Positions 2,142 to 17,149 of a stretch of 64,000 bases of DNA are shown here, one piece after another (position 1 is the stretch's first letter; every line of letters begins with the position of its first letter). The translations under genes were made by a program, and so were the position numbers. The notes below the pieces were generated by a model. That model was not told the origin of the DNA, did no database searches, and was given only the letters and a program-made list of their open reading frames with translations. Source of the stretch: Sphaerisporangium krabiense (lineage in GTDB: Bacteria; Actinomycetota; Actinomycetes; Streptosporangiales; Streptosporangiaceae); contig NZ_JACHBR010000002.1 of assembly GCF_014200435.1 (NCBI RefSeq), positions 424,501 through 488,500 on the forward strand. The letters run 5' to 3'.

Positions 2142-5066
2142 TCAGGCCCGGCGGGGATCGGAGGAGCGGGGGCCGGTCTTCGCCGGGCCGCCGGGCGGGC
2201 GGGCCGGGTGGTCGTCGCCGAGTTCGGCCACGATCGCCGCGGCCTCCCGCCGGCGGGCCCGCGCGCCGTCCCGGTCGCCGGAGGCCGCCAGCACGTCGCC
2301 GAGGCGGCTCAGCACGCCCGCCTCGCCCCGGCGGTCCTCGAAGTCCCGCATGATCTCCAGCGCCGCGTCGAACGCCGCGGCGGCCTCGGCCAGGCGGCCG
2401 AGCGCGGCGTGCGCCGTGCCCAGCGTGCGCAGCGCCTCGGCCCGGTGGTAGCGGTCGCCGAGCTCGGTGTAGATGGCGAGCGCCTCGAGGCTGCCGCGCG
2501 CCGCCTCCTCGTGGCGGCCGAGGCCGTTGTCGTTCTCGGCGATGTGGTTCAGCGTGCCGGCCTCCAGCCGCCGGTCGCCGCCGCCGCGCGCGATGGTCAG
2601 CGCCCGGTCGTGGCACTCCACCGCGCGGTCGTGACGCCCGAGCCGGAAGTACGCCCGGCCGAGGTGGGTGAGGGCCTCCCCTTCCAGGTCGCGGTCCCCG
2701 GTGCGCCGCGCGACCGCCAGCGCGTCGCCGTAGCGGGCGGCCGCCTCCTCCAGCCGCCCGAGCCGCGCGTAGGTCGCGGCCAGACCGGCCAGCGCCCAGC
2801 CCTCCTCGACGGCCGCGCCGCCGCGCCTGCACGCGCGCACCGCGGCCCGCCGCACGTCGAGCCACGCCGGTCCCGGCACGTGGAACTCGGCGAACGGCGC
2901 CATGGCGCGGCCGAGCCGCCAGGCGGCGTCGTGCCACTCGCGCGCCGCGGCGTGGCGGACCGCGGCGACCAGGTTGGGGAACTCCTCCTCGTACCATCCG
3001 ACGGCACGCTCGGCGTCGTCGAACTCCTGCGGGACCACGCCCGCCCCCTCCGGCTCCGGGGGCAGCTCCCGCCCGCCGGGGGGCAGATGGGCCGCCGCCT
3101 CGCGCGCCGTGCGGACGTACCACTCGACGACGCGGCGCAGGGGATCCGCACCGGACTGCGGATCGGCGTCCCCGGCGAGGCGCGCCTGCTCGGCCGCGTA
3201 GTCGCGCAGCAGGTCGTGGAAGTCGTACCGGCCGGGGGAGCGGGAGCGCAGCAGGTGGTCGGCGGTGAGCCGGTCCAGGAGCCGGGTGACGGCCGCGGCG
3301 TCCTCTCCCGCCAGCGCGGCCGCCGCGCCCACGCCGACCTCCGGGCCGGGGTGCAGGCCGAGCAGCCGGAACAGGCGCGCGGAGTCCGGGTCGAGCGCCC
3401 GGTAGGTCCACGAGAACACCGTGCGCAGGTCGGTGTCGTCGCCGTCGCCGGTGTCCAGCGCGGCCAGGCGGGTGCGCTCGTCCCGCAGGTCGGCGACGAG
3501 CCGCCGCAGCGGCGTCCCGGGGAAGCGGGCGGCGCGCTCGGCGAAGATGCGCAGCGCCAGGGGCAGCCGGGCGCAGCGCTCGACGATCTCGGCCACCGCG
3601 GCGGGGTCGGCGGCGACGCGCTCGGGGCCGAGCACCCCGGCGAGCAGCTCGACGGCCTCGGCCGCGGGCATCTGGTCGAGGATGACGCGCCGCGCGCCGT
3701 ACTGGACGATCAGGCCGCGGAGCTGGTTGCGGCTGGTCACGATCAGCACGCCGCCGGCGCCGGGGACGAGCGGGCGCACCTGCTCGCTGCCGCCCGCGTT
3801 GTCGAGCAGCACGAGCGTCCTGCGGCCCGCCAGCAGCGTCCGGTACAGCGCGGACCGCTCCTCCAGGCCGGCCGGGACGCGGTCGGGCGGGGTGCCGAGC
3901 GAGCGCAGCAGCGTCTCCAGCGCCGCCGCGGCCTGGACGGGCCTGCCCTGCCCGTACCCGTGCAGGTCCAGGTAGAGCTGCCCGTCGGGGAAGCGCTCGC
4001 GGGCCCGGTGCGCCCAGTGGACGGCGAGCGCGGTCTTGCCCGACCCCGCCGTACCCTGCAGCGAGACGATCGTGCCCGCCTGCGACGGGGAGGCGCCGGC
4101 GAGGACGCGGTCGAGCGCGGCCAGCTCGGCCTTGCGGCCGGCGAAGCCCGGGATGTCGGGGCGGAGCTGCCGGGGCACCTGCGCGGGGGGCTTGAGCGTC
4201 GCCCGTCCGGGCGCGGGGCCGAGGGAGGGGTCCTCGGTGAGGATCGACCGGTGCAGGTCGCGCAGGGCCGGGCCCGGGTCCACCCCGAGGTCCTCCGCCA
4301 GCACGGCGCCGACCTCCTGGTAGGCCCGCAGCGCCTCGGCCGGGCGCCCGCTGCGGTAGAGCGCCAGCATGAGCCGCTCCCAGAACGGCTCGCGCAGCGG
4401 GTGGGCGCGCGTCAGCTCGCGCAGCGGCGCGACCAGCTCGGCGTGGCCGCCGGTGCTCAGGCGGATGTCGGCCCACCGCTCCTGGGCGTGCAGCCACTCC
4501 TCGGTGAGCGGCGCCACCTCGTCGCCGTGCAGCGCGGCCGACTCGGCGTTGGAGAGCAGGGGACGCCGCCACAGTCCCATCGCCTCGGCGTAGGCGCGCG
4601 CGGCCCCCTCGAGGTCCCCGGCGGCGGCGGCCCGGCCCGCGTGGCCGGTCAGCGCGCGGAAGCGCAGCAGGTCCAGGACGCCCGGGCCGACGTCGGCGCG
4701 GTAGCCGTCGGGGACGGTGCGCACGACGTCGCGGATCTCGGGCAGCCGCCGCAGCCGGTTGACATAGGTGTGGACGGTGGCCCTGGCGCGGTCGTGGTCC
4801 TCGGGCTCCTCGTCCCACAGCCAGGCGACCAGCCGGCCCACGGGGACGGTCTCGCCGGGACGCAGCAGGAGCCCGGCCAGCGCGACGCGCAGCTTGTTGC
4901 CGGGCACCGGCACCTCGCGGGCGTCCCCTCCGGCGCCGGAGGTGACGGTCAGCGGCCCGAGCACCTGGAAACGCGCCAGGCCGTCGCCCGCGGCGTCCGC
5001 CGTCGAGTCCGCTGTGGCGTCCGCCGCCCGGTCCCGGGGGCTCCTGGCGCGCGCGGAGACGGTCAT
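2142..5066 (-). CDS. AfsR/SARP-family regulator with NB-ARC ATPase and TPR domains
   Basis: A 974-residue STAND-type activator. From N to C: an OmpR-like winged helix (about 30-115), a bacterial transcriptional activation domain (about 120-270), an NB-ARC module with P-loop GTAGSGKTA and LVLLDNA Walker B (about 300-560), and C-terminal TPR repeats (about 720-950). This is the AfsR layout; such proteins activate secondary-metabolite or developmental genes by binding direct heptamer repeats. The start is the ATG giving MTVSARARS. An upstream in-frame TTG at 5171 would add 35 residues but has no better ribosome site. It stands alone, with convergent or divergent neighbours, and could act in trans on the ram-like or terpene genes in the window; that link is inference. 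Confidence 0.9.
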   Translation of the reverse strand: MTVSARARSPRDRAADATADSTADAAGDGLARFQVLGPLTVTSGAGGDAREVPVPGNKLRVALAGLLLRPGETVPVGRLVAWLWDEEPEDHDRARATVHTYVNRLRRLPEIRDVVRTVPDGYRADVGPGVLDLLRFRALTGHAGRAAAAGDLEGAARAYAEAMGLWRRPLLSNAESAALHGDEVAPLTEEWLHAQERWADIRLSTGGHAELVAPLRELTRAHPLREPFWERLMLALYRSGRPAEALRAYQEVGAVLAEDLGVDPGPALRDLHRSILTEDPSLGPAPGRATLKPPAQVPRQLRPDIPGFAGRKAELAALDRVLAGASPSQAGTIVSLQGTAGSGKTALAVHWAHRARERFPDGQLYLDLHGYGQGRPVQAAAALETLLRSLGTPPDRVPAGLEERSALYRTLLAGRRTLVLLDNAGGSEQVRPLVPGAGGVLIVTSRNQLRGLIVQYGARRVILDQMPAAEAVELLAGVLGPERVAADPAAVAEIVERCARLPLALRIFAERAARFPGTPLRRLVADLRDERTRLAALDTGDGDDTDLRTVFSWTYRALDPDSARLFRLLGLHPGPEVGVGAAAALAGEDAAAVTRLLDRLTADHLLRSRSPGRYDFHDLLRDYAAEQARLAGDADPQSGADPLRRVVEWYVRTAREAAAHLPPGGRELPPEPEGAGVVPQEFDDAERAVGWYEEEFPNLVAAVRHAAAREWHDAAWRLGRAMAPFAEFHVPGPAWLDVRRAAVRACRRGGAAVEEGWALAGLAATYARLGRLEEAAARYGDALAVARRTGDRDLEGEALTHLGRAYFRLGRHDRAVECHDRALTIARGGGDRRLEAGTLNHIAENDNGLGRHEEAARGSLEALAIYTELGDRYHRAEALRTLGTAHAALGRLAEAAAAFDAALEIMRDFEDRRGEAGVLSRLGDVLAASGDRDGARARRREAAAIVAELGDDHPARPPGGPAKTGPRSSDPRRA

Positions 5067-5299
5067 CGGCCGTCCCACGGCGGGACGATCGCGGCCTGTG
5101 CCATCGGACCCCCCGATCTCATCCGGACGTTCGGCGCGGGACCGGAACCCTCCGCGGAACCTCGCCGGCAATCGCTCATGCTAGCGATCGCGGGCAATGA
5201 GTCCGGACATATCCGTATTTCTGGGCCAGACTCCTCTCGGCCGCCCCTGTCACACCGAGAAGAGCCCGGCCCGGATCGCGCCGGTCACCGCCGTTCGGC

Positions 5300-5345
5300 A
5301 CGGATCGGCACCGCGTGGATCGGCGCCGCGTGGATCGGCACGGAT
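5300..5345. repeat. Short direct repeats of GGATCGGC(A/G)C
   Basis: Three near-identical units of about 15 bp (GGATCGGCACCGCGT-like), plus a partial copy, lie just 3' of the VOC gene in the space upstream of the SARP gene. AfsR-type activators bind direct repeats, so they may matter, but the spacing was not matched to a known site. They could also be simple slippage. Confidence 0.3.
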
Positions 5346-6265
5346 CAGCCGGGAATCCGCCCGAGATAGAACCGGACGCCCTGGTCGTCGGCGCACTCGG
5401 CGGTGATGCCGTACGGCTGCCGCTCGGGGTCGGTGCTGGTCCCGCCGGCGGCCCTCACCCGGGCGACGGCCGCGTCGATGTCGTCGACCGCGTACATCGG
5501 CACGACGGCGGCACGGTCCCGGCCGCCCCACAGGCCGGTCATCGGGCGCACCTCCGCGTCTCCGGCGCGCACCCGCCATCCGTGCTCCACGTTGCCGGGG
5601 GCGAACTTCCAGCCGAGGACGCTTCCGTAGAACGCGCGGGCGCGGTCGACGTCGCGCACCTCGATGGTCAGGTAGACGACCTCGCCCTGCGCCGTGGAAC
5701 CGGTCTCGGCGCTCGCGCCGGGCAGCTCGTAGAGGCTGAACTCCAGCCCCTGGTCGTCCACGCAGGCCGACACGAGGCCGTACGGCTCCTGGACCGGCTC
5801 CTCGGCGCGCCCGCCGGCCGCGCGGACGCGCTCGGCGGCCGCCCGCACGTCGTCCACGAGGTGACAGGCCCACAGCGTGCGCGCCCCCTCCTGGCTCCAT
5901 ATGCCGTGCGGAAGGGTGAGCCCTTCGACCAGACGGCCGCGGGGATCGCCGCCCGGCTCGTACCGCCAGCCGAGCACGGCCTGGTAGAAGGCGGCGGCCC
6001 GGCCGGCGTCCGGCACCCGCAGCGACACGAATCCGACGTCGCCCTGCCGCAGCGCGGTGGGGGTCGCGGTGGAGGTCGAGGTGGAAGTCGAGGTGGACGG
6101 CATGATGGTCCCTCTCCTGTCGTGGGTTCTCTGGGTCCGCTCCCGGGGACGGAGCAGCTCCCGCTCCAGGCGGGCGCGCAGCCGCGCCGCGAAGGCGGGA
6201 TCGGGGTCGGCGGCCGTCGCCGGCCGCAGGAGGGCCTCGAACGGGTCAGACAACGGATCAGACAT
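5345..6265 (-). CDS. Two-domain VOC (glyoxalase/bleomycin-resistance fold) protein
   Basis: A 306-residue protein with two tandem VOC modules (about 75-180 and 195-305), each opening with the beta strand seen in FVSLRVPDAGRAAAFYQAVL and YLTIEVRDVDRARAFYGSVL. The N-terminal 50 residues (DPDPAFAARLRARLEREL) are a short helical segment often found ahead of actinobacterial VOC proteins next to sigma factors. A T/S repeat (TSTSTSTSTAT) links it to the first VOC. The start overlaps the sigma-factor stop by 8 bp with GGAGGG ideally placed, supporting translational coupling. A second in-frame ATG at 6103 also has an excellent AGGAGAGGG site and would give a 252-residue VOC-only form. The substrate cannot be read from sequence. 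Confidence 0.8.
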   Translation of the reverse strand: MSDPLSDPFEALLRPATAADPDPAFAARLRARLERELLRPRERTQRTHDRRGTIMPSTSTSTSTSTATPTALRQGDVGFVSLRVPDAGRAAAFYQAVLGWRYEPGGDPRGRLVEGLTLPHGIWSQEGARTLWACHLVDDVRAAAERVRAAGGRAEEPVQEPYGLVSACVDDQGLEFSLYELPGASAETGSTAQGEVVYLTIEVRDVDRARAFYGSVLGWKFAPGNVEHGWRVRAGDAEVRPMTGLWGGRDRAAVVPMYAVDDIDAAVARVRAAGGTSTDPERQPYGITAECADDQGVRFYLGRIPG

Positions 6266-7978: not shown

Positions 7979-8710
7979 TCACCCCTCTTTCCGTGTGACG
8001 TCGACGTGGACCCGCAGGGGGCGCAGCGGCCTGAGCTCCTCGAGCCTGTCCTCGACGGCCTCGGCGACCTCGCCGGGCAGGGCGCCCGGGTCGCGCAGCG
8101 GCGTCGTGGCGTTCACCCGCACCCCGTGGCGGCCCACCCGCACGCGGGCGTGCGAGACGCCGTCGACGCCCTCGGCGACCGTGGCGAGGTGGCGGCGCAG
8201 CCCTCCCCGGGTGATGCCGGTGACCGTCATCGCGTCGTCGGGCGCGAGCGGCACGACGCGCACCCGGCCGGGGACGAACGCCAGCCCCAGCAGGAACAGC
8301 CCGAGCGCGACCGCGCCGCTCGCCGCCGCCAGGTGCCCGGGGTCGTCCACGGGACCGGCGGCGAAGTCGGTGAACCAGGACCACGGCGGCATCCGCATGT
8401 CCGTGCCCGTCGCGGCCGAGACGGCGCCGGCCAGCGTGAGGAGCGCGGCCAGGGTGAGCAGCAGGGCGGTGACGGTGGCGGAGATCCCCCGCCGGGGACG
8501 GAACGCCCGTGCCGCCGCGCGCCGGGCGACGCCGTGCCGCACGGGCGGGCGCTCCTCGGCCGGGCCTTCCGGCGGCTCGGAATACCGGTCGGGTTCGGAG
8601 GCGGTGGGCTTGCCGGGCGAGGTCTCCTGGCCGGTCCAGGAGTCTTCGGGCCGGTCGGGCGGGCTCCCGTGGCCGGGCCAGGGGGCCGTGGGGTCGCCGG
8701 GCGTGGTCAC
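7979..8710 (-). CDS. DUF6286 membrane protein of the Gls24 operon
   Basis: A 243-residue protein: a Pro/Gly-rich cytoplasmic N-terminus (1-80), two transmembrane helices (about 88-110 and 140-160), and a C-terminal alpha/beta domain containing the repeated pattern VSHARVRVGRHGVRVNATT, seen in DUF6286. Function is not established; the family is nearly always found beside Asp23 and AmaP genes, so a role in the membrane-bound Asp23 assembly is a reasonable inference. Its start overlaps the preceding Asp23 stop by 4 bp. Confidence 0.75.
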   Translation of the reverse strand: MTTPGDPTAPWPGHGSPPDRPEDSWTGQETSPGKPTASEPDRYSEPPEGPAEERPPVRHGVARRAAARAFRPRRGISATVTALLLTLAALLTLAGAVSAATGTDMRMPPWSWFTDFAAGPVDDPGHLAAASGAVALGLFLLGLAFVPGRVRVVPLAPDDAMTVTGITRGGLRRHLATVAEGVDGVSHARVRVGRHGVRVNATTPLRDPGALPGEVAEAVEDRLEELRPLRPLRVHVDVTRKEG

Positions 8711-9099
8711 CGCACGCGCCTTTCCCCTGGCCCCGGACCGATCAGCCGGGTGACCTCGATGTCCACCTGCCTGGCCTCCAGGCCGGTCAGCTCGCGGACC
8801 CGGGCCATGACGTTGTCGCGCACCCGCCGCGCCAGGTCGCGCACCGGCGCGGGGTAGGTCGCCGACATCGCCACCTTCACGATCGCCACCTGGCCCTCCG
8901 CGTGCGCGGTGACCCGCGGCGCGACGTCGCGGGCGTCCCGGCCGAGGGGCACGCCGAGCACGCGCGGCGCGAGGCCGCCCGCGTCCTCCACCTCGGCGAC
9001 CGCGTGCGCGACGACGCGCTCGAGCACGCGGTCGGCGATGTCGGTGCGTCCCCGCGACTCCGGCGCGGACAGGCCGCCGTACGGGGCCGTGGTGCTCAT
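8707..9099 (-). CDS. Asp23/Gls24 family envelope stress protein (third paralogue)
   Basis: A 130-residue Asp23-fold protein. The core (RTDIADRVLERVVAHAVAE, then VAPRVTAHAEGQVAIVKV, then a C-terminal helix and LEARQVDIEVTRL) follows the family order helix-strand-helix-strand. The ATG was chosen because it overlaps the DUF2273 stop by 4 bp; the longer open frame upstream is a shadow. Asp23 proteins form filamentous layers at the membrane and are induced by cell-envelope or alkaline stress in Firmicutes. Confidence 0.85.
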   Translation of the reverse strand: MSTTAPYGGLSAPESRGRTDIADRVLERVVAHAVAEVEDAGGLAPRVLGVPLGRDARDVAPRVTAHAEGQVAIVKVAMSATYPAPVRDLARRVRDNVMARVRELTGLEARQVDIEVTRLIGPGPGERRVR

Positions 9100-9284
9100 G
9101 TGCGCCTCCGGCCGCGCAGGCCGCTCACCTCGAGATCGCCGCTCAGCATGCGGCCGACCACGTAGCCCGCCACGCCGAGGACGAGCACGATGACGAACGC
9201 CGCCCAGCCTCCCACGATCGCGGCGAACCCCAAGGCGGTGCCGAACAGCAGGCCGATCGCCGGCCACCAGCGGGTTTCATCCAT
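9096..9284 (-). CDS. DUF2273 small membrane protein
   Basis: A 62-residue peptide with two closely spaced hydrophobic helices (WPAIGLLFGTALGFAAIVGG and FVIVLVLGVAGYVVG) and a basic tail RGRRRT. DUF2273 proteins are constant companions of Asp23/Gls24 genes and are thought to help anchor them. It overlaps both neighbours (8 bp upstream, 4 bp downstream), showing it is a real coupled gene despite its size. Confidence 0.85.
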   Translation of the reverse strand: MDETRWWPAIGLLFGTALGFAAIVGGWAAFVIVLVLGVAGYVVGRMLSGDLEVSGLRGRRRT

Positions 9285-9621
9285 TTCCGTCACCTTCCCC
9301 CGTCGATCTCGACGGCGCGTCCTCATCCCCCGCGGCGTCCCCGGGGGTGGCGATGTCGTTCACGCGCACGTCCACCGGGACCCCCGGCACCAGCGGTCCG
9401 ACGGCCGCGCGCACCTCGTCCGCGATCTCCGGTATCGGCCTGCCGTACCGCGCGACGACGGTGATCTCGACCCCGGTGTCGCGCACCGCGACCCCGGCGG
9501 GCCCGCGGCCGAGGTGGAGGCCCCCGGCCAGCGAGGCGATGCCGGGACAGCCGGTCACCGCCTGGGCGATCCGGTCCTCCAGCCGCTCAGGAGCGCCGGC
9601 CCGGCCGGTCGTGGACGTCAT
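9277..9621 (-). CDS. Asp23/Gls24-like protein (second paralogue, divergent)
   Basis: A 114-residue, more divergent Asp23-like protein: RLEDRIAQAVTGCPGIASL at the N-terminus, VEITVVARYGRPIPEIADEV in the centre and VPVDVRVNDIATPG after it, matching the order of the first paralogue. The acidic C-terminus (DEDAPSRSTGEGDG) is unique to this copy. The ATG overlaps the previous stop by 4 bp. Confidence 0.75.
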   Translation of the reverse strand: MTSTTGRAGAPERLEDRIAQAVTGCPGIASLAGGLHLGRGPAGVAVRDTGVEITVVARYGRPIPEIADEVRAAVGPLVPGVPVDVRVNDIATPGDAAGDEDAPSRSTGEGDGNG

Positions 9622-10070
9622 CGGACCCGGGCCTCCTGCGGCTCCTCGGACTCCTCGCCGGGCAGGTGCAGATCCTGGACGGCGATGTTGACCTCGGTGA
9701 CCTCCAGCCCGCACAGCTTCTGGATCGCCTCGATGACGTTGCGGCGGGTTCCGGTGGCGATGTCCGGGATCGGGACCCCGTACTCGGCGATGATGTCGAG
9801 GTCGACCGCCGCCTGACGCTCGCCCACCTCGACGGTCACTCCTTGCGTGCTCCCGGGGGCGCCGGTGAGGCGCTCCCGTACGGCGCCGATGGCCCGGGTC
9901 ATCCCCGCGCCCATCGCGTACACGCCGGAGATCTCTCGGGCGGCCATCGCCGCGATCTTGGCGACCACCGTCTCGGCGATCGTGGTCCTGCCGCGCTCGC
10001 TCGCCAGCTCCGCGGAGCCACGGCTCGACCCCGTGGTCGTCGTGGTGGTCTCGCTCCTTTGTGCGCTCAC
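9618..10070 (-). CDS. Asp23/Gls24 family envelope stress protein (first paralogue)
   Basis: A 150-residue, canonical member and the first gene of the operon. Key stretches are TTIAETVVAKIAAMAAREIS, GVTVEVGERQAAVDLDIIA and a C-terminal VTEVNIAVQDLHLP. It starts at GTG with GGAGGA eight bases upstream. Six genes follow each other with overlaps or gaps of 4 bp or less (Asp23, Asp23, DUF2273, Asp23, DUF6286, AmaP), so this start and its upstream space carry the control for the whole operon. Confidence 0.9.
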   Translation of the reverse strand: MSAQRSETTTTTTGSSRGSAELASERGRTTIAETVVAKIAAMAAREISGVYAMGAGMTRAIGAVRERLTGAPGSTQGVTVEVGERQAAVDLDIIAEYGVPIPDIATGTRRNVIEAIQKLCGLEVTEVNIAVQDLHLPGEESEEPQEARVR

Positions 10071-10165
10071 CTCGTCGTCCTCCGTTCCAGCAGGTCGCCC
10101 TGCGTCGGCGAATAGGAAGGCACAACCGGCGTGATGAGGAGATACCCCCGCGAAGGGTAATTTAA

Positions 10166-10180
10166 GGGCATTTTATGCCC
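10166..10180. terminator. GGGCAT-TTT-ATGCCC hairpin between ram-like and Gls24 operons
   Basis: A perfect 6-bp stem with a 3-base loop in the 143-bp gap after the last ABC exporter gene and before the first Asp23 gene. On the coding strand it is followed by TTAAATTA, an unusually AT-rich patch. It may end the ram-like transcript or act as an operator for the Gls24 promoter; the two cannot be told apart here. Confidence 0.4.
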
Positions 10181-10213: not shown

Positions 10214-12022
10214 TCAGGCCCCGGAGGCCACCGGGTCCTCCCACCGGCCCATCAGGTCCCGGTACAGCGGCGAGGCCGCGATCATCTCCTCGTGCGTGCC
10301 CACCTGGGCGCGGACGCCGTCCATCACCAGCACCCGCCGGGCCCGCAGCGCCGAGGTGAGCCGGTGCGCGATGACGATCAGCGTCCCCTCGCGCGCGGCG
10401 AACGCCTCCTCCGCCCGCGCCTCCGCGGCCGGATCCAGGTGGCAGGTGGCCTCGTCCAGCAGGATCAGCCGCGCCGGCGACAGGTAGGCGCGGGTCAGCG
10501 CGATGAGCTGCCGCTCGCCCGAGGACAGCTCGGAGGGGTCCACCAGCGCCTCGTACCCGCCGATCCGCGCGGCCAGCTCCGCCATGCCCACCGCGTCCAC
10601 CGCCTTGTCCAGCTCCGACGGCGAACGCCCCGGCGCCAGGTACGTCAGGTTCTCGCCCAGCGTGCCGCGGAAGACGTACGCCTCCTGCGGGATCAGCACC
10701 CGCGCCGCGCTCAGGGCGGGGCCGGACAGGCTCGCCACGGGGACGCCGCCGATCAGCACCTGCCCCTCACCGGGCCGCAGCAGGCCGGCCGCCAGGGCCG
10801 CGACCGTGGACTTGCCGATGCCGCTCGGGCCCACCACCGCCAGATGATCCCCCTCGCGCACGACGAGGCTCAGGTCCGACACCACCGGCTCCGCCGCGGG
10901 GCCGTAGGCGAACGTCACCCGGCGCAGCCGCAGCAGCGCGCCCCGGGGCGGCGTGCCCGGCCCGTCCGCGGCGAGCGCCTGCCGCGGCGCGGGCCCCATG
11001 GACAGGATGCGTTCCAGCGCCACCACCAGCCGCACCCCGTTCACCCCGACGCCCTGCACCAGGCCGCCGAGCGCGGGGGTCAGCGACTGGGCCACGTACG
11101 TCAGCGTGCCGAGGATGACCCCGGCGGTCGCGCCGTCGCGCACGAGGGCCGGGGTGGCGACCAGGACCATCAGGATGGGCAGCCACCCGCCGACGGCCAG
11201 TGAGAGCATGCGCGCGGCGGTGAGCCGGGAGAGCGCCTTGGCCACCTCCGCCTGCCGCGTCACGTCCCGTCCGACCGCGGCGGCGACCCGGTCCTCCGCG
11301 CCGCAGGCCGTGACGTCGCGCAGCGCGTCCACCATCGCCGCCACCGAGGACGCGGTGCCCTCCTCGGCCAGGATCAGCCGCCGCTGCAGCCGCGCCATGG
11401 CGGGAAGCGACGCGGAGAACAACGCGAGCCCCGCGGCCAGCGGCAGCAGCACCAGCGGCAGCACCGCGTCCATCAGCGTGAGGACCCCCACCAGCACGCC
11501 CGTCACCGAGAACAGGAAGGACCTGCTCACCGCGATCACCGCGGCGAAGGAGTCGCGGGCGAGCTCGACCTGGCGGCCGAGCCGGGCCAGCGCGGCGCTG
11601 TCCGGGCGCATGCCCGAGGCGGCGGTGCGGTACAGCGTGCCCGCCACGACCCGCCGCAGCAGCGTGTCGCGGAACGGCTCGACGATCGCGGCGATGGCCA
11701 GCAGCACCTGGCGGGCGCCGAGCGCGGCGGCCAGCCACGCGACCGCCATCAGGCCCAGCCACGCCAGGCCCGTCGCCGGGCGGCCCGCCGCGAAACCGTC
11801 GTCCAGCGCGTGCGCGAGGGCCTGGCCGGAGAGGAACGCGGGCGCGGCCTCGGCGAGCGACCAGGCGAACAACCGCACCAGGACCCCGGGCCGCCGCCGC
11901 GCCGCCCGCCACAGCAACTCGCGCGCCTCGGCTCGCGTGGCCTGCCGCGCCGCCTCCGCCCGCGCGCCGCCCCGCCGTCCCGCGCGCGCGCCGTCTCGCC
12001 GTCCCGTCCAGCGGAGGGTCAT
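10214..12022 (-). CDS. ABC half-exporter, RamB-like
   Basis: A 602-residue fused membrane-ATPase protein. Six transmembrane segments occupy about 40-320, followed by an ATPase with Walker A VVGPSGIGKSTVAAL, signature LSSGERQLIALTRAYL and Walker B LILLDEATCHLD. In ram/amf loci the two half-transporters are thought to export the modified lanthipeptide as a heterodimer. The start ATG overlaps the stop of the partner gene (ATGA), so the two are translationally coupled. The signature serine-serine (LSSGE) departs from LSGGQ in one position but is common in exporters. Confidence 0.88.
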   Translation of the reverse strand: MTLRWTGRRDGARAGRRGGARAEAARQATRAEARELLWRAARRRPGVLVRLFAWSLAEAAPAFLSGQALAHALDDGFAAGRPATGLAWLGLMAVAWLAAALGARQVLLAIAAIVEPFRDTLLRRVVAGTLYRTAASGMRPDSAALARLGRQVELARDSFAAVIAVSRSFLFSVTGVLVGVLTLMDAVLPLVLLPLAAGLALFSASLPAMARLQRRLILAEEGTASSVAAMVDALRDVTACGAEDRVAAAVGRDVTRQAEVAKALSRLTAARMLSLAVGGWLPILMVLVATPALVRDGATAGVILGTLTYVAQSLTPALGGLVQGVGVNGVRLVVALERILSMGPAPRQALAADGPGTPPRGALLRLRRVTFAYGPAAEPVVSDLSLVVREGDHLAVVGPSGIGKSTVAALAAGLLRPGEGQVLIGGVPVASLSGPALSAARVLIPQEAYVFRGTLGENLTYLAPGRSPSELDKAVDAVGMAELAARIGGYEALVDPSELSSGERQLIALTRAYLSPARLILLDEATCHLDPAAEARAEEAFAAREGTLIVIAHRLTSALRARRVLVMDGVRAQVGTHEEMIAASPLYRDLMGRWEDPVASGA

Positions 12023-14037
12023 CGCGGCTCCGCCACCGGGGAAGGCGTCGCGGAAGGTGCCGGCGGAGGTGCTGGGGAGGGTGCCGGTGACGCCGTCGGG
12101 GAGGAGGCCGGCGGCGTCACCGGCGGGGAATGCCGCGGTGCCACGGAGTCGTGTGGCGACCGCGGTGTGGATTCGGGCCCGTCTCCGCCACGGCCCGGGA
12201 TCGCCGCCTCGTCCGCCGCCTCGTCCGCCGCCTCGTCCGTCACCTGGCCCGCCGCCTGGCCGGTCACCTGGAACACGGCGCGGTAAAGCGGGTCGCGCCA
12301 CAGCATCTCGTGCGTGCCGCGCCCGCGGATCCGTCCGTCCTCCAGCCAGACCACCAGGTCCGCGCGGGCGGCCGTGGCGGCGCGGTGGGCGACGATCAGC
12401 CGGGTGCGGTCGCGCAGCTCCTCGGTCAGCGCCCGCGCGACCTGGTACTCGGTCACGGTGTCCAGGCTGGAGGTGGCGTCGTCCAGGATCAGCAGCCGCC
12501 CGTCGTGGGCGAACGCGCGGGCGAGCCCCACCCGCTGGCGCTCGCCGCCCGACATGGGCGCCTCCTCGACCGGCGTGTCGTAGGCGCGGGGGAGCCTGCG
12601 GATGAACGCGTCCGCCGCGGCGGCCTTGCCGGCGGCCCTGACCGCCTCGTCGGACCCGCCGGGCGCGATGGCCTCGCGCAGGGTGTGGCCGAACAGCACG
12701 GGGCGCTCGAACGCGTAGCCGGCCGCCCCGCGCAGCGCGGCGCGGGAGAGCCGGGGGAGCGGGACCCCGTCGAGCAGAACCTCGCCGCTGCCGGGGTCGA
12801 GCAGGCGCCCGGCGACGGCCGCCAGCGCGGACTTCCCGCTGCCCGACCTGCCCACCACCGCCAGCGCGGCCCCTCCGGGCACGGTGAGGTCGATGTCGCG
12901 CAGCACCGGCCGCCCGTCGGCGTACGCGCTGACGCCGCGCAGTTCCAGGCGCCCGCGTTCGGCCCCCGCGCCGGGCGGCTCCTCGTTCCCGTAGGTGGGG
13001 GCGGGCAGGTCGAGGACCTGGCGCACGCGCCGCGCGGCCGAGCGGGCGCGGGCGAGCCGGTTCAGATAGCCGAGCGCCGAGCCGATGCCCGCGCCGAGCA
13101 CCGCGTACCGGGCCGCCGCGAACAGCTCGCCCGCGGTCAGCGCCCCGGCCGCCAGGCGCAGGCCGCCGACGCCGATCACGGCGGTCTCCAGCAGGGGCAC
13201 GACGATGGCGGCCTGCACGCCCGCGCGGGCGTTCACGCGCCACACGGCCATGCCGAACGCGCGCAGGCGGGTCAGCGGCGCGAGGACGCGGCGCACCTCC
13301 TGCTCCTCGGTCCCGGCGGCGGCGATGGTGCGCGCGCCCGCCAGCGCGTCGATGAGCCGGGAGGCGATGTCGCTCTGGGCCTCCTGGTAGCCGGAGGAGA
13401 CGGCGGTGGTCTCGCGCAGGAAGGCGCGCAGGACGAGCAGGATCACGGCGAGGCCCGCGGCGAACGCCACCGCGAGCCAGGGGTCGATGAGCGCCAGCGC
13501 GACCAGCGATCCGGCGGCCGGCACGAGCAGGGAGACGGCCGTGATCAGGGCCTCGGGCGCGGCGCCGACCTCCTCGGCGTTGGTCCCCGCGCGGGTGACC
13601 AGGTCGCCGGCGGGGTGACGGCGGGACATCGCGGGCCCGACGGCGAGGATGTGCCGGACCACGCGCTCGCGCAGCAGCCGCGCGGCCTGCGCGCCGCCGG
13701 ATCCCGAGGCGAGCACCGCCACCGCGTCGCAGGCCACGACCGTGGCGACGAGGGAGGCGCACAGCACGAGAACGCCGGCGGGGTCGCCGGCGGGGGAGAC
13801 GAGGACGTCGACGGCCCGGCCGAGCGCGCCGGGGAGCATCAGCTCGACCACGGCGCCGGCCAGCGCGGTCACGGCGTAGACGTAGGGCCAGGCGCCGCTG
13901 CGGCGCACCATCTCCAGCAGCAGCCTGTCGGCGCCGCGGTCCGGGTTCCCGGCCCCCGTCACGGGAGCCGCTTCGGTGGCGGCGGTGTGTTCCCGGGTGC
14001 CGGTCGTCCGGTGGCCCGCCGCCGGGGTCTCCGACAT
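12019..14037 (-). CDS. ABC half-exporter, RamA-like, with Pro-rich C-terminal tail
   Basis: A 672-residue partner exporter. The membrane domain spans about 45-330; the ATPase has Walker A VVGRSGSGKSALA near residue 395, signature MSGGERQRVGLARAF and Walker B LLILDDATSSLD. Unlike its partner it carries a C-terminal extension of about 60 residues rich in Pro, Ala, Ser and Thr (PAPSPAPPPAPSATPSP), encoded by a locally repetitive stretch. The tail is not part of the ABC fold and its role is unknown. It lies 102 bp downstream of the second precursor gene and probably shares its transcript. Confidence 0.88.
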   Translation of the reverse strand: MSETPAAGHRTTGTREHTAATEAAPVTGAGNPDRGADRLLLEMVRRSGAWPYVYAVTALAGAVVELMLPGALGRAVDVLVSPAGDPAGVLVLCASLVATVVACDAVAVLASGSGGAQAARLLRERVVRHILAVGPAMSRRHPAGDLVTRAGTNAEEVGAAPEALITAVSLLVPAAGSLVALALIDPWLAVAFAAGLAVILLVLRAFLRETTAVSSGYQEAQSDIASRLIDALAGARTIAAAGTEEQEVRRVLAPLTRLRAFGMAVWRVNARAGVQAAIVVPLLETAVIGVGGLRLAAGALTAGELFAAARYAVLGAGIGSALGYLNRLARARSAARRVRQVLDLPAPTYGNEEPPGAGAERGRLELRGVSAYADGRPVLRDIDLTVPGGAALAVVGRSGSGKSALAAVAGRLLDPGSGEVLLDGVPLPRLSRAALRGAAGYAFERPVLFGHTLREAIAPGGSDEAVRAAGKAAAADAFIRRLPRAYDTPVEEAPMSGGERQRVGLARAFAHDGRLLILDDATSSLDTVTEYQVARALTEELRDRTRLIVAHRAATAARADLVVWLEDGRIRGRGTHEMLWRDPLYRAVFQVTGQAAGQVTDEAADEAADEAAIPGRGGDGPESTPRSPHDSVAPRHSPPVTPPASSPTASPAPSPAPPPAPSATPSPVAEPR

Positions 14038-14139: not shown

Positions 14140-14271
14140 TCAGTTGCCGCAGAGGATGCTGAGGCTGCTGTTCTCGTGCGGGGTGCAACCGACCAGGCTC
14201 AGGCTGCTGCCCTCGCCGCCGTGGCCGCCGCCGCCGGGAAGCTCCATGTCCTGCAGGTCGAGAAGCGCCAT
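14140..14271 (-). CDS. SapB/AmfS-like class III lanthipeptide precursor, copy 2
   Basis: A 43-residue precursor. The leader MALLDLQDMELPGGGGHGGE carries the LLDLQxM motif recognised by RamC/AmfT-type synthetases; the core follows as GSSLSLVGCTPHENSSLSIL then CGN. Ring motif one is Ser-x2-Ser-x3-Cys (labionin/lanthionine spacing as in SapB and AmfS); motif two is Ser-x2-Ser-x2-Cys, one residue shorter than in those peptides. It differs from copy 1 at only two residues (Glu for Gly at 20, Val for Leu at 27). The ribosome site (AGAAAGGG) is weaker than that of copy 1. It is too short for most gene callers. Confidence 0.9.
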   Translation of the reverse strand: MALLDLQDMELPGGGGHGGEGSSLSLVGCTPHENSSLSILCGN

Positions 14272-14332
14272 GGGGATCACGCCCTTTCTTTTCGCCGGAT
14301 TTCGGGGTACCGCTGGGAACTTCTGAGAGATG

Positions 14333-14464
14333 TCAGTTGCCGCAGAGGATGCTGAGGCTGCTGTTCTCGTGCGGGGTGCAACCCAGGAGGCTCAGGCTGC
14401 TGCCGCCACCGCCGTGGCCGCCGCCGCCGGGGAGCTCCATGTCCTGAAGGTCCAGAAGCGCCAT
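14333..14464 (-). CDS. SapB/AmfS-like class III lanthipeptide precursor, copy 1
   Basis: A 43-residue precursor directly behind the synthetase gene (6 bp gap) with a near-perfect AAAGGAGGTGA ribosome site. It reads MALLDLQDMELPGGGGHGGG then GSSLSLLGCTPHENSSLSIL then CGN. The LLDLQ leader motif and two SSLS-x-Cys blocks are those of RamS/AmfS. The Gly-rich linker GGGGHGGGG between leader and core replaces the acidic hinge of RamS and AmfS. By homology the product is dehydrated at Ser and cyclised to lanthionine or labionin rings, giving a surface-active peptide that helps aerial hyphae emerge. Strong translation here suggests this is the major copy. Confidence 0.93.
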   Translation of the reverse strand: MALLDLQDMELPGGGGHGGGGSSLSLLGCTPHENSSLSILCGN

Positions 14465-14470
14465 GTCGTG

Positions 14471-17149
14471 TCACCTCCTTTCGCTCTCGGGGGGAACCGC
14501 CGTCCCGGCGGGGGTGCCGGGCGGGGAGATGAAGGGCAGGGTCACCGGCTGGTCGTGCAGCACGGCGCCCAGCGCGAGGACCACACCGGCGGTGCCGCTG
14601 CCGAGGTCCATCGAGAGCCGGAGCAACTGGTTGCCCGGGAAGGCCAGCCCGCCGCCGTAGGGCATCGCGTGCCAGGCCAGCCGCGTCACCTGGTCGGCCA
14701 CCTCGGGGGAGTGGCGGCCGACGTCCGGGCGCAGGCCCATGGCCAGCGCGGTGATCATGCCGGCGCGTCCGTTGAACAGGTTTGACTGGACGTAGTACCG
14801 GAGCGTCGCGACCGGCCCGATGTCGTGCAGGGCCTGCCGGAAGTCCGCGTTCTCGCGCCGTTCGAGGTAGTGGCGCAGGACCAGCCCGATGCCGGCCGAG
14901 CCCTCGTCCAGGTAGGGGTTGGTGCGCCAGCCCTGCTGGACCTGGAGCTGCCCGTCGTCGCGGTGGACGCACCGGCGCAGGTCCTGCCGCAGGGCCACCT
15001 CCGCGTGGTCGAGCAGCGCGGTGTCGCCCGTGGCGTCGTAGGCCCGCAGGAACAGCAGCGCCGGGCCCGCGGACCCGCGCATCAGCCCCGCGTGCGGGTG
15101 GGCGCCGCCGCTGATCTCGGGAACGCTCTCGACCGTGCCGAGCCGGTCGGCGACCAGGTCGACGATCCTGCCCGCGCCGTCCAGGATCTCGCGGTCCCCG
15201 GTGGCGCTCCCGAAGTGCAGGAGGTTCAGCCCGATTCCCGCCAGCCCCGAGTACAGGCTCTGGCCGAGCCGGTCCCACTTCTCGCGCAGGCACAGGGAGA
15301 CGAGCTCCAGGGCGTCCTCGCGGCGGCCGATCGCGTCGAAGGCGTACGCGACGCCGTGCAGGCCGTCCCAGAAGCCGAGGCCGGTGCCGTGCTCGGGGGC
15401 GAAGGCCCGCTCGCGCAGCCAGCCCTCGTACTCAGGGAAGCGCCCCGCCCCGGTCACGGCCAGGGCGTACAGGACGCCGGCCGCTCCGCTGGCCAGGTTG
15501 AGCCCGCCGCCCGGCAGGAACTGCGTCGAGTCGCCGGGGAACAGGCGGTCCTGGCGCTGGGGGGTCGCGGAGGCGAGGATCGCCCGGCGCGCGGCGTCCC
15601 TGAGCGAGGTCCAGGAGGCCCGGCCCGGCAGCGGCAGCTCGCGCATCGCCCGCGTGTCGGGCCGCTGCGCGACCGTGCTCGCCGTGGTTCCCGGGGCCTC
15701 CGGTGCGCTCGCCGCGGGTGTCGCCGGCTCGGCGCTCCGCTCCGGGCCGAGGATGGTCTCGACCGCCTCGTCGATGAACGCGCGCGGCACCGGGAAGGTC
15801 TCGCGCACCAGTTCGGCGAGGTGGACCACCTTGGCCCGGTGCAAGGGGATCAGCACCGTGGACATCGTGGCGAACAGGCTCAGGCGCATGCAGGCGAGCG
15901 AGTACTTGTCGGCCTCCATGCCGAGCCGGTCGGGCGGAGGGCAGAAGCCGGGGTTGGCGAGCGTCGGCCGGGTGTTGTCCTCCACCAGGCTGGCCACCTC
16001 GAAGTCGATCAGCACGGCCCTGTCGCCGTCGACCAGGACGTTGAAGGGGTGCAGGTCGCCGAACACGACCCCGCGCTCGTGCAGGGAGGCGATGGCGCGC
16101 TCCACCTGGCCGAGCATCCGCAGCGCCCATTCGGTGAACTCGGCGGCGTCCTCGGGGGTCATGGCCGCGCGGATCAGCGGGTGGCGCCGTACCGACTCCT
16201 GGCTGAGCGTGGGCCCGTCCACGAACTCCTGGACCAGGAAGTGGTGGTCGCCGACGGTGAAGTAGTCGCGCATGGCCGGCACGGAGTCCAGCCCGTCGAG
16301 CCGGCGCAGCATGTCCGCCTCGTGCCGGAGGCGCGCCACGGCGTCGCGGCCGACCGCGTCGAGCCCGGCGTGCGGCCTGGCCTCCTTGAGCACGACCGTC
16401 TCGCCGGTGCGGGTGTCGGTCGCCTTGTAGACGCCGCCGCCGTTGGAGAAGTGCAGCACGCTCTCGATCGAGTACGGCAGGTCGGCCATGGTCACCGCGT
16501 TGCGGGCGGCGAGGTGGGGCTCGAGGAACGCGGGCAGGGTGACCCACGGCGGGGGGGAGAAGGAGGGGCCGCGGCGGTCGGGCACGAGGACGCCGTCGGG
16601 GTCCTCGATCGCCAGCACGCGGTCCAGGTTGGCGTTGAGGCAGAACCGCTCGGCGAAGCCGCCGTAGCGGACGAACAGGGGGCCCTCGCCGATGCGCAGG
16701 TCGCTCAGGATGTAGGGGCCCGTCACGCCGCGCAGGAGCTCGTCGAGTTCCTTGATCACCAGTTCGAGGTCGGCCTCGTCCACGGGGTAGATCGTGACCA
16801 GCTTGCCGCTGCTGCCCCGGTCGGCGTACTTGGAGCTCTGCATCATCGCGACCCGCGGCCCGCGCAGGAACTTGAAGCTGATGCGCCGGCCGACGCAGTA
16901 GTCCCAGACGATGTCCAGCGTCTTCTCGGCGTCGGCCAGGCAGGAGGAGATGTGGATCTTCCAGCCCTGCGACGGCAACGTCCTGTCCGCCGGCCCGTAG
17001 TGCAGCCAGGTGTCCGTGGCGCGGTGCTCCCACCCGGAAGGTACGGCCCGACCGGCAATGGGGAAATCCGGATACTTGGCCCGCTGGTTGTCAAGGGTGT
17101 CGTAAAACAACGGATCCGCTTGGCAATAGACCTCGTACCGGGTGGTCAC
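14471..17149 (-). CDS. Class III lanthipeptide synthetase LanKC (RamC/AmfT-like)
   Basis: An 892-residue trifunctional enzyme. The N-terminal lyase region (about 1-225) begins RYEVYCQADPLFYD, as in RamC. A Ser/Thr-kinase-like domain follows (about 225-490) with Gly loop NGGGVYKAT, lysine in VVLKEARPH near 255, catalytic GDLHPFN near 365 and metal-binding IDFE near 383; it phosphorylates core Ser residues. The C-terminal cyclase-like domain (about 520-880) keeps the Gly-rich repeats (GLAGIGLNLL, GSAGIGLVL, GTAGVVLALG) but lacks the Cys/His zinc ligands of class I and II cyclases, which is characteristic of class III. It starts at GTG with GAGAGGGG upstream. It heads an operon with both precursors and both exporters; no ramR-like response regulator is adjacent. 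Confidence 0.95.
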   Translation of the reverse strand: MTTRYEVYCQADPLFYDTLDNQRAKYPDFPIAGRAVPSGWEHRATDTWLHYGPADRTLPSQGWKIHISSCLADAEKTLDIVWDYCVGRRISFKFLRGPRVAMMQSSKYADRGSSGKLVTIYPVDEADLELVIKELDELLRGVTGPYILSDLRIGEGPLFVRYGGFAERFCLNANLDRVLAIEDPDGVLVPDRRGPSFSPPPWVTLPAFLEPHLAARNAVTMADLPYSIESVLHFSNGGGVYKATDTRTGETVVLKEARPHAGLDAVGRDAVARLRHEADMLRRLDGLDSVPAMRDYFTVGDHHFLVQEFVDGPTLSQESVRRHPLIRAAMTPEDAAEFTEWALRMLGQVERAIASLHERGVVFGDLHPFNVLVDGDRAVLIDFEVASLVEDNTRPTLANPGFCPPPDRLGMEADKYSLACMRLSLFATMSTVLIPLHRAKVVHLAELVRETFPVPRAFIDEAVETILGPERSAEPATPAASAPEAPGTTASTVAQRPDTRAMRELPLPGRASWTSLRDAARRAILASATPQRQDRLFPGDSTQFLPGGGLNLASGAAGVLYALAVTGAGRFPEYEGWLRERAFAPEHGTGLGFWDGLHGVAYAFDAIGRREDALELVSLCLREKWDRLGQSLYSGLAGIGLNLLHFGSATGDREILDGAGRIVDLVADRLGTVESVPEISGGAHPHAGLMRGSAGPALLFLRAYDATGDTALLDHAEVALRQDLRRCVHRDDGQLQVQQGWRTNPYLDEGSAGIGLVLRHYLERRENADFRQALHDIGPVATLRYYVQSNLFNGRAGMITALAMGLRPDVGRHSPEVADQVTRLAWHAMPYGGGLAFPGNQLLRLSMDLGSGTAGVVLALGAVLHDQPVTLPFISPPGTPAGTAVPPESERR

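Follow-up and report, generated by a model that had tools for sequence, protein, structure and literature searches.

In the closest described systems, ramC, ramS and the transporter genes lie side by side (PMC4255298, in excerpt), and recent evidence presents SapB-like peptides as surface-active morphogens (PMC13380574, in excerpt). Class III precursors share the core motif S-x2-S-x(2-5)-C (PMC8960859, in excerpt; PMC11251773). Structural work on ThurKC describes binding of the leader helix and a three-domain action of LanKC, and a DFE kinase motif has been linked to the Lab-forming class III enzymes (PMC10604976, in excerpt). In several class III systems the leader is removed by unclustered proteases (PMC8960859, in excerpt), and a Zn-dependent bifunctional protease is described as an alternative (PMC12328550, in excerpt). 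According to the excerpt of PMC4255298, most amf-like clusters of Streptomyces are under bldA control.

The window, the whole 64,000-nucleotide stretch of Sphaerisporangium krabiense DNA that was analysed, has the same layout of LanKC, precursor and two transporters, in the minus-strand order LanKC, A1, A2, ABC1, ABC2 (Table 1). As the initial annotation had noted, A1 (MALLDLQDMELPGGGGHGGGGSSLSLLGCTPHENSSLSILCGN) and A2 (MALLDLQDMELPGGGGHGGEGSSLSLVGCTPHENSSLSILCGN) translate into 43-residue precursors that mismatch at residues 20 (G/E) and 27 (L/V) only; both have the LLDLQ leader, a first motif S22-x2-S25-x3-C29 and a second motif S35-x2-S38-x2-C41. Their assignment to the SapB/AmfS kind is borne out by the leader, the LanKC, the ABC pair and the profile search, in which both exceed the cut-off of 25 bits for NF033212 (SapB_AmfS_lanti). 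We put a probability of roughly 75% on a class III lanthipeptide operon of this kind, with a surface-active morphogen as product, a contracted second Lan or Lab ring and tandem genes that serve dosage, a reading in which we infer ring chemistry, cleavage site, export and function. The general pattern S-x2-S-x(2-5)-C fits both motifs of both precursors. The excerpt of PMC13380574 names a tandem SXXSXXXC pattern for morphogens; motif 1 has this form but motif 2 reads SXXSXXC, and we count this against our reading.

Table 1. Positions within the window of the operon, its precursor parts and the neighbouring genes named in the text.
Feature	Position	Strand	Evidence
lanA1, precursor peptide 1, 43 aa	14333..14464	-	NF033212, 51.5 bits
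lanA2, precursor peptide 2, 43 aa	14140..14271	-	NF033212, 51.2 bits
A1 second motif SSLSILC (S-x2-S-x2-C)	14342..14362	-	translation
A2 second motif SSLSILC	14149..14169	-	translation
A1 first motif SSLSLLGC (S-x2-S-x3-C)	14378..14401	-	translation
A2 first motif SSLSLVGC	14185..14208	-	translation
A1 inter-ring loop TPHEN	14363..14377	-	PHEN common to precursors read in six genera
A1 Gly/His-rich hinge GGGGHGGGG, leader/core junction	14402..14428	-	translation
AAGGAGGTGA, likely A1 ribosome-binding site, overlapping the LanKC stop codon	14471..14480	-	
AAAGGGCGTGA, likely weaker ribosome-binding site of A2	14277..14287	-	
LanKC, class III lanthionine synthetase, 892 aa: RamC_N, DFE-motif kinase, LanC-like domain	14471..17149	-	NF038151
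ABC transporter 1, membrane and ATPase domains	12019..14037	-	Pfam scan: no peptidase domain
ABC transporter 2, ATG overlapping the transporter 1 stop	10214..12022	-	
Asp23-family gene	9618..10172	-	
Asp23-family gene	8707..9267	-	
Glyoxalase-type protein	5345..6265	-	
SARP/AfsR-like regulator	2142..5171	-	

Chance open reading frames are ruled out for A1 and A2 by HMM scores, operon position and conservation: both reach 51 bits with NF033212, their genes follow immediately after that of a class III LanKC, and the model finds a match in 9 of 11 Sphaerisporangium genomes and in none of 14 control genomes. The synthetase reaches 1078 bits with the class III model NF038151 (cut-off 575), is composed of RamC_N, Pkinase and LANC_like domains, has LanKC relatives of solved structure and carries the DFE kinase motif at residue 382. 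The motif of LanC is CHG, and our LanKC has F-N in the place of its C-H. Among named genomes, LanKC matches four loci, all in Sphaerisporangium (72-80% identity); tblastn against plasmids returned 100 records, every one below 60% identity. A second LanKC-like synthetase is found elsewhere in the genome (G000:C1:3441202-3443775, 495 bits, below the class III cut-off) and has a counterpart in the near relative G008.

The neighbouring open reading frames that were scanned contain no match to a LuxR-type regulator (ramR/amfR). The missing ramR counts against our preferred reading, but in the excerpt of PMC4255298 ramR is confined to streptomycetes. The five operon genes are without a TTA codon, and bldA control of the operon is rejected on this ground. 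Promoter and terminator scans yielded no more than shuffled sequences. The operon is flanked on one side by Asp23-type genes and a DUF6286 gene, and on the other by DUF2795 and a weak beta-lactamase-type match. The two Asp23-family genes lie, with the DUF6286 gene, downstream of the transporters, and at least six further Sphaerisporangium genomes contain matches to the Asp23 open reading frames. Two more genes near the operon encode a SARP/AfsR-like regulator, which does not reach the AfsR cut-off, and a glyoxalase-type protein that weakly matches the AfsK-binding protein KbpA, again below cut-off.

Wherever the precursors of the nine matching Sphaerisporangium genomes are readable, they repeat the motif pattern of A1 and A2. 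LanKC exceeds the NF038151 cut-off in 10 of the 11 genomes, with a model that includes the kinase domain, gives matches in 12 of 14 controls and is above cut-off in one of them. In G007 the LanKC match stops 126 bases from the contig start and precursors may be cut off, and in G009 no LanKC is above cut-off. NF033212 finds a match in 195 of 341 genomes of the family at E 0.01 (191 above cut-off) and in 51 of 394 genomes of a class-wide sample at E 0.001 (48 above cut-off). Precursors were read at fetched loci only, that is, at the best-scoring among the matches listed and at stretches picked by hand; we kept those with an ATG, an LLDLQ-type leader and an S/T-x2-S/T motif, the others dropping out, which gives 125 genomes, and one genome may fall in more than one motif class. 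Both motifs have the x3 spacing in 83 genomes (104 distinct sequences), the second motif is x2 in 27 genomes (42 sequences), and the first is x2 and the second x3 in 15 genomes (18 sequences). Rarer classes have one motif (3 genomes), x3/x5 spacing (2) or three motifs (2).

The search in related genomes that the initial annotation had proposed found the short second motif together with PHENSSLS in 26 of the 125 genomes read, as 41 distinct sequences from six genera (g1, 9 genomes; g30, 8; g47, 5; g52, 2; g11, 1; g50, 1). The remaining genome with a short second motif, G210, is the sole one of the 27 to lack HENSSLS (STLSAVC), and the precursors read in the six genera include no other motif class. 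The short second motif is thus a trait common to related genera, not an oddity of one strain. A sequencing slip or strain peculiarity in the second motif is ruled out by the identical motif in 26 genomes. The second motif had been described as one residue shorter than in SapB and AmfS, which holds, both motifs being x3 in the SapB-type and AmfS-type precursors of other genomes (L130, L136, L138). Calling the ring unusual holds in part: it differs from SapB and AmfS, but x2 is within the known class III range (PMC8960859, in excerpt; PMC11251773) and occurs in 26 genomes of the six genera.

Several other arrangements were seen among the loci. The first motif is the short one in L101, L109, L113, L119, L121 and L125 (g3, g55), for example SSLSLLC-H-SSHSITICL. 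L162 and L166 (g35) have a row of five different class III-like precursors, one with three motifs. In L164 and L165 (g55) there are precursor pairs, which we take to be labyrinthopeptin-like, and in each pair the second motif of one member is S-x2-S-x5-C. Finally, the odd precursors of L118, L126, L169 and L174 have a Gly run between a short, hydrophilic SxxSx(1-2)C block and a C-terminal SxLSLL-C block.

The 41 sequences give the core consensus S-x-[LVI]-S-L-[LVI]-[GA]-C-[TV]-P-H-E-N-S-S-L-S-[ILV]-[LIV]-C-G, in which the HENSSLS stretch is constant by construction, as the sequences were selected by it. Of the 42 distinct sequences whose second motif is short, 41 contain PHENSSLS-x2-C, a fact independent of this selection. 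The codons of the constant part are also nearly uniform (44 genes); this is expected at high G+C and is not used as proof of selection at the protein level. LanKC identity to the window drops to 64% across the clade, so the core is better kept than the enzyme. The hinge, counted from residue 12 up to the Ser that opens the core, is 7 to 14 residues long, with a Gly fraction of at least 0.6 in 40 of the 41 sequences and His in 34. Among 49 PSNLS-type sequences, selected by PSN, the loop likewise has five residues but varies in sequence, and Gly makes up at least half of the hinge in 39 of them. The Gly-rich hinge noted in the initial annotation is present, but it is common in the family and GGGGHGG is not a local replacement of an acidic hinge.

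The LanKC tree comprises 41 rows, one for the window and 40 for selected loci; G210 and the short-motif types found in g5, g51 and g85 are outside it. One branch (98/97; 96% of 200 bootstrap trees) sets apart all 17 rows with a short second motif, and a different one (100/99) all five rows whose first motif is short. Since the tree has a midpoint root, the claim is limited to at least two changes of ring spacing, affecting different rings, along the LanKC tree of these sequences. As each kind of change is represented by a single transition, enzyme changes cannot be tied to ring size.

That motif 2 escapes Lab cyclisation, and ends as a single Lan or as a linear Dha-rich tail with a free Cys, we consider improbable. 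Topology does vary in this group, Lan being reported in SapB and AmfS and Lab in rochsin A and durhapeptin (PMC13380574, in excerpt). S-x2-S-x2-C nevertheless stands in motif 2 of every precursor read in the six genera, which is hardly a product of decay, although reading required at least one S/T-x2-S/T motif and motif-free precursors would escape. Lanthionine plus Dha and labionin are equal in mass, so water-loss counts alone cannot settle the ring topology. For a four-fold dehydrated core, the predicted [M+H]+ is 2160.02 (A1) or 2146.01 (A2) if cleavage is assumed before S22, and 2217.04 or 2203.03 if it is assumed before G21. A plain surfactant would hardly seem to require so strictly kept a PHEN loop, which counts against one. 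In one Streptosporangiaceae clade, the shortened second ring may have co-evolved with the invariant P-H-E-N loop to form a structured head dedicated to a particular task, such as metal binding by His32, its crosslink to dehydrated Ser35/36, or receptor recognition. We regard this as unlikely; if true, the peptide would be recognised as a signal instead of acting as a plain surfactant.

We also consider it unlikely that the product is an antibiotic or some other class III peptide without a morphogen role, whether labyrinthopeptin-like or noursin-like. The very strict core conservation would suit this and class III activities are varied (PMC10206099, in excerpt), but SapB/AmfS gives the best family match, and the score with the other class III precursor model stays at 25 bits (cut-off 30). 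The leader and the hydrophobic ring residues also resemble the morphogen group, and none of the five operon genes encodes a tailoring enzyme. The CTP after the first ring was considered as a nisin-like lipid II motif and rejected, the Cys of the SxxxCTP(G/S)C form (PMC7268733) being absent.

The initial annotation had left open a two-component or a dosage function for the tandem pair. Tandem precursor copies are a common feature of the family. We compared 44 copies from 22 sources, all selected by HENSSLS. In the eight multi-copy Sphaerisporangium genomes, GGAGGTGA precedes copy 1 in all eight, and AAAGGGCGT stands at copy 2 in seven, the exception being G006. With these copy-specific upstream sequences kept, the duplication of the precursor gene looks old. 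The 20-residue cores are identical between copies in four of the eight genomes (G001, G002, G003, G006) and differ by one or two Leu/Val/Ile swaps in the other four (the window, G008, G005, G004); A1 and A2 share 19 of 20 core residues, and two of the three copies in G004 are identical. A two-component system, in which A1 and A2 differ on purpose (L27/V27, G20/E20) and act jointly, could draw on the L/V pair, which is common to the window and G008 and of which both members also occur in G005 and G004. In g30, moreover, seven of eight genomes (G075, G076, G077, G080, G082, G083, G088) contain both core subtypes, SI[IV]CG and SLICG, which follow the same order in G076, G077, G082 and G083. We nevertheless judge such a system very unlikely for A1 and A2, given the identical cores in half of the multi-copy Sphaerisporangium genomes, the single copy read in the five g47 genomes and in G078 (g30), the conservative nature of the differences and the reversed order in G075 and G088; residue 20 would probably lie within the removed part. 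Judging from these sequences, dosage, with homogenised or strongly constrained cores, fits better. The two subtypes speak against pure dosage in g30, where a division of labour between them is possible. At the g30 loci L065, L066, L052 and L069, the subtypes GC..SIICG and AC..SLICG are present in the same genome, possibly a real two-peptide case.

In our preferred reading, the morphogen operon, LanKC would bind the LLDLQ leader, phosphorylate and eliminate the motif serines and close a single Lan or Lab unit in each motif, with that of the second motif (S35/S38/C41) shorter by one residue. The ABC pair would export the product, and an unclustered protease would trim the leader at the flexible Gly-rich hinge. 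The Zn-dependent bifunctional leader protease belongs to the M1 family. Two M1 peptidase genes are present in the genome, which is only compatible with a hidden leader removal, M1 matches also being found in 8 of 14 control genomes. Once outside the cell, the amphipathic peptide would serve aerial growth or sporangia as a surface-active morphogen, a role suggested by family membership, and the tandem genes would supply a dosage of essentially one product.

We found no description of a CTPHEN-type precursor in the open-licence literature searched, from which absence from print does not follow. The LanKC enzymes of the clade lend themselves to the question of how ring size is set by a class III cyclase, and the clade also bears on whether SapB-like peptides outside Streptomyces are surfactants or specific signals.

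Among known class III systems, noursin is also a LanKC product with His in its core, but it has one Cys, a Lab3-Lab7-Lab15 arrangement with an 8/11 His crosslink, an LELQEL leader and a LanKC of a separate subgroup (PMC10206099, in excerpt). Noursin-like (histidinobutyrine) peptides are marked by a Thr and a His at a distance of three residues and by a LanKC from the Hbt subgroup; here T30 and H32 are two apart, and V replaces T in one of 41 relatives. Durhapeptin and rochsin A are morphogenetic class III peptides with two Lab units reported, durhapeptin with two SXXSXXXC motifs, and partial TFA hydrolysis followed by MS/MS has been applied to a durhapeptin variant (PMC13380574, in excerpt). 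The PSNLS-type precursors of the same family (g2, g18, g58 and others) often share the Gly/His-rich hinge and the tandem copies, and have a five-residue loop, but their second motif is x3 (for example SNLSLLLCH) and their loop is variable and ends in P. AmfS of Streptomyces griseus has a MALLDLQ leader and an SSLS second motif (AmfS-type sequence L138), but with x3 spacing (SSLSVVLC), and a single copy was read in L138. SapB, the ramS product of Streptomyces coelicolor, shares a DLQ-type leader, two Ser-x2-Ser motifs and a LanKC with two transporter genes (PMC4255298, in excerpt); it differs in its x3 second motif, its acidic hinge residues and a nearby ramR. The loop between the rings has two residues in both, GD in SapB and EY in AmfS, whereas A1 and A2 have the five residues TPHEN.
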